DNA of 34,936 nucleotides from Bacteroidales bacterium (GTDB taxonomy: Bacteria; Bacteroidota; Bacteroidia; Bacteroidales; UBA932), in NCBI GenBank assembly GCA_017464245.1, contig JAFUDV010000049.1:1-34936 (forward strand), read 5' to 3'. Position 1 is the first letter of the stretch. Each line of letters starts with the position of its first letter. A program made the position numbers and the translations under genes. Positions 2,462 to 5,212 of this stretch are shown piece after piece. The notes below the pieces were generated by a model that was given only the letters and a program-made list of their open reading frames with translations, ran no database searches and was not told where the DNA came from.

Positions 2462-4411
2462 CTATTCGAAGTAGTAGCCGTATCCGGCTTTCGTGTGGAG
2501 ACGTTCCGCCAGCGGGCCCAGCTTGGCCCGGATGCGGCGGATGTTCACGTCCACGACGCGCTCGCCCACGATCACGTCCTTGGGCCAGACCAGGTCCAGC
2601 AGTTCACTGCGGGAGTACACGTGGCCCGGATTGGACGTAAAGAGGCTCAGGAGTTCGAATTCGGTCCGGGTCAGGTCCAGGGGCGTCCCGTCGATGGTCG
2701 CGGCCTTCTGGACGACGTCGATCCGGAGGGCGCCGGATTCGGGCACGCCGTCGCGCTTCCCCAGCTTGGCCTCCACCACGTTGATGACATAGTCGCCGCA
2801 TTTCTCGCACTCGCGGACCAGGTCGATGAAGATGGTGCCCACGGCGAAGCTGTACACGCCTTCATCGACATCTTCCGTGTTCCGGGTCCTGAGGGTGTTG
2901 CGGAGGGCGTCGATACGGTTCTCGAAGTCCTGCGACGTCTCGTATTCCCCGTCGCCCCGGAGAACGGCCTCCATGCTGCCCATGGCACCGTCCAGGAGCG
3001 TGAACATCTCGGCGATGCCCTGCTCCTGCTCCGCCGTGAACACGGCTTTCTGGCTGCGCTTGCGCTCCATGACGCGGGACAGGTTGAAGAGGCTGTCGCC
3101 GATGCTCTCCAGTTCGCTGACTTCCCGGAGCAGGCTGCGGACCTTCCGCTTGGTATCGTCGCTCAAGTGGGCGTTGCCCACCTGGGCGAGGTAGCCGCCG
3201 ATTTCGCTTTCCAGGCGGTCGCTCATTTCCTCCATCTCCTTGATCCGCTGGGCCTTCTTCGCGAAAGCGTCTCCGTCGGCCGTGGCGTAGAGTTCCCTGA
3301 CCTCGGTGAACATGCTCCGCATGCGCTCGGCAAAGAGCCCGGTCTCCTTCTGTGCCTGGAAGACGGCAAGTTCCGGGGTCTTCATGATGCCGCCCTGGAT
3401 GTACTTGAGCTTGAAGCCCTCGTCGCCGGCCTTCTGCGGGATCAGCTTGCTCACCACCTTCTCCAGCTGCGGGATGAACCAGATGAGGATGAGCGTGTTG
3501 GTGACGTTGAACATGGTGTGGAAGGTCGCCAGGACGAAGGACAGGCGGGCGGGGCTCTGGGCCGACGCCTGCGGGTCCACGCCCACCAGGTGGCAGGCCG
3601 CATTCACGAAGGGATAGAAGATGGCGAGCACCCAGAGCACGCCGAAGACATTGAATACCAGGTGCGCCAGGGCCGCCCTCCGGGCCTGCGTGTTGGCCGA
3701 CAGGGCCGCGATGTTGGCCGTGACGGTGGTGCCGATGTTCTCGCCCATCACCAGCGCGATGCCCTGGTAGATCGTGATGACGCCGCTGGTGCAAAGGACC
3801 ATCGTGATCGCCATCAGCGCGGCAGAGGACTGTGCGATGCAGGTCAGGATGCCGCCGATGAGGATGAACAGCAGGATGGTCCAGTAGCTTCCGGAGTCGA
3901 AGGAGGCGAAGAAGCCCACCACCCCTTCGTTCTCCGCGAGGTTCATGTCGCGGCCCGTGGCGTTGAGCGTGCCCAGGGCGAAGAACATGAACGCCAGACC
4001 GAAGAGGAAGTCGCCCAGATAACGCTGCTTCCGCATCTGGATCAGGATGATAGCGATCAGGAAAACGGGCCAGACCAGGTTGGCGATATTGAAGGAGAAG
4101 CCGGCCGACATGATCCAGGCCGACAGCGTCGTGCCGATATTGGCACCCATGATGACCGAGATGGCCTGCGACAGGCTCAAAAGCGCGGCATTCACGAAGG
4201 AAACCGTCATCAGGGTGGTGGCTGCGGAAGACTGGACCGCGACGCACACGAGCATACCGGTGAGTACGCCGGTGAAGCGGTTCGTCGTCATGGCGCCCAG
4301 GATGTGCCGGAGGCCCGGTCCCGCCATCTTCTGCAGGGCTTCGCTCATCACCTTCATGCCGTACATGAGAAGGGCGATGCAGCCAAGGAGTTTCAATACG
4401 GTGAGAATCAT
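2462..4411 (-). CDS. Na/Pi transporter-PhoU-winged-helix fusion
   Basis: A single 649-aa frame with three parts. Residues about 1-325 are a NptA/YjbB-type Na+/phosphate cotransporter with two inverted repeats, each bearing the family motifs: QSSAATT 60-66 with GANIGTT 89-95, and QSSAA 194-198 with GENIGTT 223-229. Residues about 345-550 are a helical PhoU domain (SDRLESEIGG, ELESIGDSLFNL, VRECEKCGDYV). Residues about 562-649 are an OmpR/PhoB winged helix: LDLTRTEFELLSLF, GHVYSRSELLDLVW, the recognition helix RVVDVNIRRIRAKLG, and the wing end TKAGYGYYFE. Transporter-PhoU fusions are known. The DNA-binding tail is the unusual addition, and I do not know of a described example. There is no receiver or kinase domain. 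The inferred role is to take up phosphate, sense flux through PhoU, and regulate promoters from the inner membrane. The phosphatase gene lies just upstream on the same strand. Confidence 0.93.
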   Translation of the reverse strand: MILTVLKLLGCIALLMYGMKVMSEALQKMAGPGLRHILGAMTTNRFTGVLTGMLVCVAVQSSAATTLMTVSFVNAALLSLSQAISVIMGANIGTTLSAWIMSAGFSFNIANLVWPVFLIAIILIQMRKQRYLGDFLFGLAFMFFALGTLNATGRDMNLAENEGVVGFFASFDSGSYWTILLFILIGGILTCIAQSSAALMAITMVLCTSGVITIYQGIALVMGENIGTTVTANIAALSANTQARRAALAHLVFNVFGVLWVLAIFYPFVNAACHLVGVDPQASAQSPARLSFVLATFHTMFNVTNTLILIWFIPQLEKVVSKLIPQKAGDEGFKLKYIQGGIMKTPELAVFQAQKETGLFAERMRSMFTEVRELYATADGDAFAKKAQRIKEMEEMSDRLESEIGGYLAQVGNAHLSDDTKRKVRSLLREVSELESIGDSLFNLSRVMERKRSQKAVFTAEQEQGIAEMFTLLDGAMGSMEAVLRGDGEYETSQDFENRIDALRNTLRTRNTEDVDEGVYSFAVGTIFIDLVRECEKCGDYVINVVEAKLGKRDGVPESGALRIDVVQKAATIDGTPLDLTRTEFELLSLFTSNPGHVYSRSELLDLVWPKDVIVGERVVDVNIRRIRAKLGPLAERLHTKAGYGYYFE

Positions 4412-4415
4412 GATA

Positions 4416-4446
4416 CAAAAATACTTTTCTTGCCGGTTCTGTGCAA
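4416..4446 (-). promoter_or_regulatory. promoter of the transporter-wHTH fusion gene, nearly leaderless
   Basis: On the minus strand TATTTTTG (4423-4416) is a perfect TAnnTTTG -7 box. A TTG (4446-4444) lies 20 bp upstream, at the spacing expected for a -33 element. Only 4 bases separate the -7 box from the ATG at 4411. The transcript should therefore begin at or very near the start codon. Confidence 0.65.
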
Positions 4447-4449
4447 TCC

Positions 4450-4461
4450 CCCGCGCGCGGG
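4450..4461. promoter_or_regulatory. perfect 12-bp GC palindrome next to the Pho-box-like repeat
   Basis: CCCGCGCGCGGG is a perfect palindrome lying exactly between the direct repeat (4462-4479) and the -33 element. It has no T-run on the minus strand, so it is a poor terminator for the phosphatase gene. It may be part of the operator or chance GC-rich sequence. Confidence 0.3.
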
Positions 4462-4479
4462 TTTAACAATATTTTAACA
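4462..4479 (-). promoter_or_regulatory. Pho-box-like direct repeat (7-4-7)
   Basis: TTTAACA-ATAT-TTTAACA reads as two identical 7-mers at an 11-bp period. PhoB/OmpR-type winged helices bind such head-to-tail repeats. The PhoP boxes of Bacillus subtilis are TTAACA-like hexamers about 11 bp apart, which this matches. It is centred about 59 bp upstream of the fusion gene's start codon, upstream of the -33 element, a position suited to activation. It follows the phosphatase stop codon. Binding by the adjacent winged-helix fusion is an inference. Confidence 0.6.
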
Positions 4480-4483
4480 CGGA

Positions 4484-5212
4484 TTACCGGCAGGAAGCCG
4501 TCAGGCGCCGGAATTCCTCCCGCGCCAGGGCGACCTGGGCCCGGTAGCGGAGACTGGTCTGCAGACGGGCGTAGCCGATGCAGGCGGCCGTGGCGCTGGC
4601 GTCTACGTCGCTCTGCCAGTGGCAGCCCGCGATGACGCGGCTCTCCCCGGAGACGAAGGCGCGGGCGAACAGCGCTTCAGCAGCCTTCGGGTTGATTTCC
4701 GAGAGCACCAGGGCGGCGCTCCAGGCACGGATCGTATGGCCGGAGGGGTAGGAGCCTTCCGTGGCCAGCCAGGCATCGTCCTGCGGGAAGATGGACGGCT
4801 CGTGGAAGCGGGCGTACGGGCGCATCCGGAAGTAATGGGCCTTGGGGCGGAAGCGGATCTGCTCGATGGTGGAGACCCCGTTGACGAAGGCACGGTAGAT
4901 TTCCGGTGTCTTCTCGGGGGAGATTTCCAGGCCGAAGGGCACGCTGTAGATGGTCCGGAGCGTGTCCAGGTCCCAGATGGCGTCGCGCTTGGCGACGGCC
5001 AGGCGCTCCGGGTCCAGCCGCTGCGTCTTCCCCCACATGTACCGCATGATGTCGTGCGTGAAAGCTTCTCCGATGGTGTCCGGCGGGGCAGGGAGGCACT
5101 GCACGAGGTCCGGAAGGTCCTCCTCGGCGAAATACAGTTCGACGGCGGGCTGGGCTTGGAGGAGGACGGCGCCGAGCAGCAGCGCGGACAGGGTGGAGAA
5201 GAGGGATTTCAT
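4484..5212 (-). CDS. class A non-specific acid phosphatase (PAP2 superfamily), secreted
   Basis: The protein has 242 aa with a signal peptide ending near LLQAQ (residues 17-21), so it should be periplasmic. The complete three-part PAP2 signature is present: K124-x6-R131-P132 (KAHYFRMRP), PSGH at 156-159 and SR-x5-H-x3-D at 191-202 (SRVIAGCHWQSD). His198 is the expected nucleophile and His159 the acid/base. The spacing and the secreted form match bacterial class A acid phosphatases (PhoN/PhoC type), which release Pi from many phosphomonoesters. The gene lies 72 bp upstream of the Na/Pi transporter fusion on the same strand, so released phosphate could be taken up by the neighbour. Confidence 0.93.
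   Translation of the reverse strand: MKSLFSTLSALLLGAVLLQAQPAVELYFAEEDLPDLVQCLPAPPDTIGEAFTHDIMRYMWGKTQRLDPERLAVAKRDAIWDLDTLRTIYSVPFGLEISPEKTPEIYRAFVNGVSTIEQIRFRPKAHYFRMRPYARFHEPSIFPQDDAWLATEGSYPSGHTIRAWSAALVLSEINPKAAEALFARAFVSGESRVIAGCHWQSDVDASATAACIGYARLQTSLRYRAQVALAREEFRRLTASCR

Follow-up and report, generated by a model that had tools for sequence, protein, structure and literature searches.

A gene joining an NptA-type phosphate transporter, PhoU and the PhoB effector half in uncultured Bacteroidales, with a Pho-box-like repeat in its own promoter

Results and discussion

A transporter, PhoU and a PhoB-type winged helix in one open frame

The window, by which we mean the whole 34,936-nucleotide stretch of Bacteroidales DNA analysed (contig JAFUDV010000049.1 of assembly GCA_017464245.1), carries on its minus strand a gene that runs without a single internal stop from a phosphate transporter through PhoU into a DNA-binding domain (Table 1). 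An earlier note, made from the sequence alone, had claimed such a continuous frame ending in a complete OmpR/PhoB winged helix, and a Pfam scan of the protein bears it out, with two stretches each of PF02690 Na_Pi_cotrans (E 1e-51) and PF01895 PhoU (E 2e-9) followed by PF00486 Trans_reg_C at residues 575–648 (model positions 1–77 of 77, E 2e-20).

Table 1. Features of the fusion locus, in window coordinates
Feature	Position	Strand	Description
Fusion gene, Na/Pi transporter + PhoU + PhoB-type winged helix	2462..4411	-	649 aa, open frame
NptA/YjbB-type Na/Pi transporter part	3431..4411	-	residues 1-327; TIGR00704, PF02690
PhoU part	2762..3331	-	about residues 361-550; PF01895, two stretches
PhoB-type winged helix (PhoB effector half)	2465..2737	-	residues 559-649; NF053854, PF00486
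Recognition helix RVVDVNIRRIRAKLG	2516..2560	-	residues 618-632; from alignments
Pho-box-like repeat TGTTAAA-ATAT-TGTTAAA	4462..4479	-	7-bp direct repeat, 11-bp period, 51-68 bp before the ATG
TATTTTTG, match to TAnnTTTG (-7 element)	4416..4423	-	38 bp past the box, then the ATG
PAP2-family (acid phosphatase-like) gene	4484..5212	-	73 bp upstream of the fusion; PF01569, E 4e-13

The transporter part is an Na/Pi cotransporter of the NptA/YjbB type, with two Na_Pi_cotrans repeats that carry QSS motifs. TIGR00704 matches residues 2–327 (E 8e-66) at 222.8 bits, which passes its cut-off of 210.1, phmmer matches this part to SLC34A2, and the motif residues Q60-S61-S62 and Q194-S195-S196-A197-A198 are invariant in all 48 aligned sequences (locus L255 was left out of this alignment). 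The PhoU part holds the two repeats of a PhoU domain protein, with E433, E435, S436, D439, E536, G539, D540 and N544 invariant in the same 48 sequences, and matches the full-length PhoU model TIGR02135 weakly, below its cut-off.

The remaining C-terminal part, hereafter the tail, finds its best NCBIfam match in the Bacteroidota PhoB model NF053854, residues 559–649 aligning to model positions 135–225 of 225 (E 4e-28). This match spans the last 91 positions of the model and leaves the receiver part unmatched, and its 98 bits fall below the whole-protein cut-off of 270. Against the E. coli PhoB effector structures 1gxp and 3t72 (E about 1e-13) the recognition helix aligns throughout, so that the tail has both the complete Trans_reg_C domain and the recognition helix of an OmpR/PhoB winged helix. 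The Pfam scan of the protein found no Response_reg match, hence no PhoB receiver, and neither HisKA nor HATPase_c, hence no kinase of the CbrA type. With a transporter family and a winged helix in one frame, the protein combines a membrane-spanning region and a DNA-binding domain in one polypeptide, as a transmembrane transcription regulator (TTR) does.

Across nine pairs of copies with an intact recognition helix the tail had dN/dS of 0 to 0.14 (a tenth pair was saturated), and by this measure the tail of intact-helix copies is under purifying selection. Where one or both helices of a pair were degenerate, the six pairs compared gave 0.04 to 0.19, which suggests some constraint even on those tails. 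Elsewhere in the window, at 202–711, a short frame matches Kinase-PolyVal (PF18762, E 3e-19), described in Pfam as the kinase domain of polyvalent proteins.

The fusion recurs across genomes, genera and projects

Searching for the same domain order in other genomes, as the earlier note had suggested, revealed full-length fusions in at least 17 of the 101 genomes of the genus (at least 21 genes, 59–88% identical to the window's protein apart from its own copy), with one split copy and one contig-edge copy in two further genus genomes; a homologue is present in at least 89 of the 101. Among the matches listed for the family (299 genomes), fusions occur in at least 4 genera, and the order (393 genomes, E 1e-140) added one fusion from another family (L293, genome G761, 654 aa). 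Extending the search to 395 genomes drawn from the whole phylum, at E 1e-150, returned homologues in 4 genomes, all of the same order, and a tail in the window only. From 80 loci in named genome records, 74 genes could be extracted (all but L199, L241, L245, L247, L254 and L271), and 45 of these are fusions, 31 of them new and 14 already in our first set. Their sources are MAGs of uncultured Bacteroidales that several projects produced, mostly from ruminants to judge by the titles, and also from horse faeces. Because the same domain order recurs in so many genomes, genera and projects, the fusion is no chance, frame artefact or misassembly, and the frame break that the earlier note had named as a danger is excluded.

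Within a single PhoB branch the tails fall into three clades: A, to which the window's tail belongs, B, and C (from genus g4, family f55 and three named loci). Conservation has limits, so that the expectation of a fusion kept among relatives stands for many genomes and fails for others: the tail is absent from many close relatives, including one whose protein is 85% identical to the window's. The recognition helix likewise is intact in 24 of 40 first-set fusions and 18 of 30 new ones, and degenerate in 16 and 12 respectively, about two in five. Missing in many close relatives and decayed in that share of copies, the tail is dispensable in places.

We found no conserved neighbourhood around the fusion, flanking genes varying between genomes. 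Homologues of the window's PAP2-family gene, at 89–90% identity, are located one (L043), two (L107) or three (L044) gene places ahead of three other fusions. These are clade-B fusions only 63% identical to the window's, and this disparity in identity makes transfer of the PAP2 gene between lineages possible.

A Pho-box-like repeat upstream of a putative -7 element

The upstream DNA of the fusion contains a 7-bp direct repeat with an 11-bp period and, between it and the ATG, a match to TAnnTTTG, which we take to be the Bacteroides -7 element. None of 200 shuffles of the window's upstream DNA equalled the score of the repeat. A PHO box consists of two 7-nt direct repeats with a 4-nt gap (PMC4415409), and the repeat has this form, judged by sequence alone, at the promoter of its candidate target; it lies inside positions 4440–4490, the DNA that the earlier note had singled out for a binding assay.

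A strict box pattern derived from fusion promoters, TTAMAATNNWGTTAMA, gave 25 matches in 70 genomes against 3 for the reversed pattern, and 17 of the 25 stand directly upstream of a fusion gene. In the window's 2.37-Mb assembly the only strict match is the fusion's own box, a looser pattern likewise gave one, and neither pattern found a second box that would indicate a wider Pho regulon there. The other eight strict matches (in G016, G020, G033, G034 and G077, two in G095 and a second site in G028) have no -7 match 36–38 bp further on and no phosphate genes as judged by eye from translations; all but the G028 copy we take as chance. The G028 site (G028:C55:25620-25635, equivalent to L051:5621-5636; also L173) lies 2.9 kb upstream of a fusion, at the end of a membrane-protein-like gene and in DNA resembling the fusion's promoter, and looks like a duplicated promoter fragment.

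Spacing to the -7 match is narrow: among the 36 fusion promoters scoring at least 11, many of them near relatives, the distance is 36–38 bp in 35, the exception being L040 with 27 bp.

Box and recognition helix are kept or lost together

Each tail received a recognition-helix score by comparison with the free PhoB proteins of the genus, with a threshold of 37 that was chosen after the first set had been seen, and each box a score from a matrix trained on 10 fusions (L061 and L074, with short upstream DNA, were left out of box scoring, and L152, with no PhoB frame, out of helix scoring). Of the first-set promoters, a box was found in 18 of the 24 that belong to intact-helix fusions, and in none of the 16 of degenerate-helix fusions or the 32 of tail-less genes. 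Independent pairs on the tree gave about 5.5 for and 0 against an association of helix and box, of 9 (median p 0.03; 0.06 without the matrix-training rows), and a threshold-free rank correlation of helix score with box score reached 0.55 over 42 rows but was weak without the training rows (rho 0.29, p 0.11). The new rows from named records, scored with thresholds fixed, repeated the pattern, the box occurring in 11 of 18 intact, 0 of 12 degenerate and 0 of 21 tail-less rows (Fisher p 6e-4 for intact versus degenerate fusions). The earlier note had raised the fate of the DNA-contact residues in homologues: the recognition helix is intact in the majority of fusions, and the degenerate copies are without a box by score.

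A motif-free test asked for any direct repeat 33–41 bp before the -7 match, a range picked after the box-to-(-7) distances had been measured, in 112 promoters (37 of 149 were removed as near copies or too short, and L293 was placed among the intact by eye). Repeats of period 11 occurred in 14 of the 33 promoters of intact-helix fusions, in 2 of the 27 of degenerate ones and in none of the 52 of tail-less genes, and no other period from 8 to 15 ever exceeded 2 in any group. The contrast also appears within single genomes: G057 (L049, L036) and G003 (L044, L046) each hold two fusions, one with an intact helix and a box and one with a degenerate helix and no box.

The two period-11 matches in the degenerate group, L039 and L205, have GATAAA as their common repeat. 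With L040, L041 and L100 they make up a clade-A subgroup whose recognition helix is altered (e.g. VDGSIRDIR) and whose promoters share GATAAA near the usual place, possibly through a switch of DNA specificity.

The box threshold is missed by 6 of the 24 intact-helix fusions of the first set and by 7 of the 18 of the second. A diverged clade-A box is present in two of these 13 (L194 and L197) and a clade-C box in four (L117, L249, L270 and L273), while no box was found in L038, L043, L104, L113, L114, L220 or L237. All five clade-C fusions examined (these four and L293) have a period-11 repeat resembling TGTAACC-N4-TGTAACA, ending at a steady 31–32 bp before the -7 match; this is 5 bp nearer than elsewhere, half a helical turn, and is not what one activation geometry common to all clades would lead one to expect.

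Other phosphate genes in the assembly and genus

The earlier note had also held that sensor kinase and receiver are absent; beyond the missing domains in the protein itself, we found no other OmpR-type winged helix (PF00486) in the window's assembly, of which the fused tail is the only one. PstC was not found there either, so that neither the PstSCAB transporter, judged by PstC, nor a separate PhoB was recognised, and PHO4/PiT was likewise not found. The assembly is 84.7% complete, and the lack of another regulator, of a second box and of Pst or PiT is accordingly a statement about the assembly. No phosphate transporter was recognised in it apart from the fusion and one other NptA-PhoU gene, which is 40% identical to the fusion and has no tail. 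Across the genus PstC occurs in 7 of 101 genomes, among which are none of the 19 fusion genomes, and PiT in 2 of 17 fusion genomes searched.

Free PhoB (at least 240 bits) was counted by eye in 2 of 19 fusion genomes and 29 of 82 others (Fisher p 0.051), which is only suggestive of mutual exclusion between the fusion and free PhoB. By an eye comparison of match lists, at least 11 of the 31 free PhoB genes adjoin an NptA-PhoU gene. In eight genomes (G012, G022, G031, G046, G058, G059, G076 and G079) a second class of NptA-PhoU gene, 35–43% identical to the window's, stands beside free phoB, in divergent orientation in 7 of the 8. In G015 (C36) and G067 (C29) free phoB adjoins a PHO4 (PiT-type) gene whose open frame is long (747–755 aa), perhaps another transporter-regulator pair.

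These counts bear on the possibility that the box serves another regulator, such as free PhoB, and that the fused winged helix has some other job. Free PhoB does coexist with the fusion in those two genomes, and the transporter-phoB-phoR operon of L062 described below has a box at the same distance from its -7 match, so that the promoter may predate the fusion; yet the window's assembly offers no other domain of this family to bind the box, and the box tracks the integrity of the fused helix. We regard this reading as very improbable, and continue with the fused tail as the likely ligand of the box.

Origin of the fusion

In four of 37 tail-less neighbourhoods (L059, L062, L064 and L130), some of the 37 being cut by contig ends, a phoB-like gene (225–231 aa) and then a kinase gene come after the transporter gene, in the same orientation. 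By Pfam, the L059 regulator consists of a receiver and a winged helix, and the L059 and L064 kinases of HisKA and HATPase_c. A motif test found such a PhoB-like gene plus kinase gene directly downstream beside these four tail-less copies only. The L062 operon has a box 37 bp before its -7 match, the best-scoring repeat pair of L064 lies 48 bp away, and L059 and L130 have no box by score. With a transporter-phoB-phoR operon present in the genus, the fusion looks like that operon cut down to the transporter and the PhoB effector half, and it probably arose from a transporter-PhoU gene and the effector half of a neighbouring phoB, with the receiver lost and phoR dispensed with. Tail-less, operon and fused states coexist in one genus, which thereby records a possible route from a two-component to a one-component membrane regulator.

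A tree of the core protein (without L050, L073 and L074, short or split, and L121, for which nothing passed the filter) forces at least nine changes of tail state, and constraining the tails to one clade was not rejected (p-AU 0.52). So patchy a distribution, together with the tail-less relative at 85% identity and the degenerate helices in 16 of 40 first-set fusions, would suit a passenger tail, the relic of an old fusion that is being lost from a transporter that works without it. What speaks for a tail in use is its low dN/dS in the nine intact-helix pairs, the joint keeping or loss of box and helix (the window's copy has both), and the lack of a tail remnant 3' of the stop in any of 33 tail-less genes, a search run without a positive control. 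On this balance we give the passenger reading little credence and retain a working tail as the preferred one.

A proposed mechanism

We think it quite likely, from the pattern across sequences, that the fused transporter binds the Pho-box-like operator at its own gene from the membrane and thereby controls its own synthesis. In the proposed scheme the cytoplasmic PhoU domain would be joined directly to the PhoB DNA-binding half, and two fusion proteins would occupy the box together, each with its winged helix on one repeat and next to the other's, much as E. coli PhoB occupies its own box. Binding of the tail to the box is suggested by the loss of helix and box together. Occupancy of the box would then activate the fusion's promoter, to which the location of the box upstream of the core promoter points.

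A PhoB effector domain from which the receiver has been removed can bind DNA constitutively (PMC4415409). The tail would on that ground need no kinase, and tethering and the adjoining PhoU would remain as its controls. The same finding, that receiver-less effector domains bind DNA alone (PMC4415409), would also serve a winged helix acting off the membrane as a soluble factor, made by proteolytic release or from an internal start codon. An ATG does occur within 26 codons past the PhoU end in 20 of 41 fusions, against which no start-codon position in that stretch is common to more than 17 of the 41; we consider a soluble factor rather improbable, and prefer binding from the membrane.

PhoU, together with transport state or cytoplasmic phosphate, would gate this binding, the gene being switched on when phosphate is low, and the transporter part would import phosphate. 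The direction of transport matters here: Salmonella and E. coli YjbB is reported to be a phosphate exporter (PMC11389368), but since the assembly yielded neither PstC nor PiT, import seems the likelier direction in this case. The sign of control could also be the opposite, the tail binding the box but repressing, as negative autoregulation that limits phosphate uptake or export. Autoregulation alone leaves the sign unfixed, a membrane-tethered repressor is possible, and export by YjbB (PMC11389368) would fit it. Yet the box ends 36–38 bp before the -7 match, upstream of the expected -33 element and in a position that is activator-like, and an assembly without PstC or PiT needs some importer. 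PhoB domains, moreover, are mostly activators. Repression is thus unlikely in our judgement, and activation of the gene's own promoter stays the preferred reading.

The evidence ties the tail to its own promoter, and not DNA binding to transport. Our fuller proposal is tentative, one we hold to be possible without leaning towards it: that a whole phosphate circuit has collapsed into one protein, in which PhoU would gate a tethered PhoB effector on a single operator, its own. Such a transport-gated one-component homeostat would derive from a Pst-free transporter-phoB-phoR operon, its helix and operator changing together into lineage-specific operators (TGTTAAA, TGTTACA and TGTAACC). How the state of a transporter reaches PhoB via PhoU and PhoR is a long-standing question of phosphate signalling. 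With kinase and receiver gone, three parts in one polypeptide and one candidate operator, one could ask of one reconstituted protein whether its transport is coupled to DNA binding.

Comparison with known systems

YjbB of E. coli and Salmonella has its transporter before its PhoU domain, the order also seen here, and NptA-type transporters (TIGR00704, PF02690, PhoU) share it. Proteins of this kind stop after PhoU, whereas the fusion continues into a PhoB-type winged helix; YjbB is reported to export phosphate (PMC11389368), whereas import by the fusion is our reading. A 2026 survey of PhoU proteins set aside those with Na_Pi_cotrans domains (PMC13170248).

With the PhoB-PhoR-PhoU-Pst system the fusion shares a phosphate transporter, PhoU, the PhoB DNA-binding domain and the repeats of a Pho box. 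It differs in lacking the receiver, in an assembly where a separate PhoB and PstC were not found, in holding transporter, PhoU and effector in one protein, and in the one box found, with no regulon. In B. fragilis the pstC promoter is reported to be a binding target of PhoB (PMC3547664).

CadC, ToxR, hybrid TTRs and Rsp resemble the fusion in uniting a membrane span and a DNA-binding domain in one polypeptide, but in the fusion it is a transporter and PhoU that make up the membrane part. The earlier note had pointed out that the tethered winged helices of CadC and ToxR are N-terminal; a C-terminal arrangement has a precedent, as gonococcal Rsp has a C-terminal DNA-binding domain, like the fusion (PMC10269533). 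Hybrid transmembrane regulators with DNA-binding domains are reported to be common in Bacteroides, and a survey of 50,302 TTRs has no PhoU in its main text and the word "transporter" once, in the references, though its supplement may list such proteins (PMC10269533).

CbrA and CrbS, in which an SLC5 transporter is joined to a histidine kinase, are alike in linking a transporter to a signalling output (PMC8871633). Their output is a kinase with a separate response regulator, that of the fusion the DNA-binding domain itself; in function, no known system comes closer to the fusion than transporter-kinase proteins of the CbrA sort. Our literature search found no description of a transporter-PhoU-winged helix protein. 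The earlier note was not aware of a described case, which overstates the novelty of the tether, a C-terminal DNA-binding domain on a membrane protein having precedent, and is sound for the transporter-PhoU membrane part and the box: one-protein membrane regulators are a known kind, and what appears new is one made with a transporter and PhoU whose own promoter bears a box.
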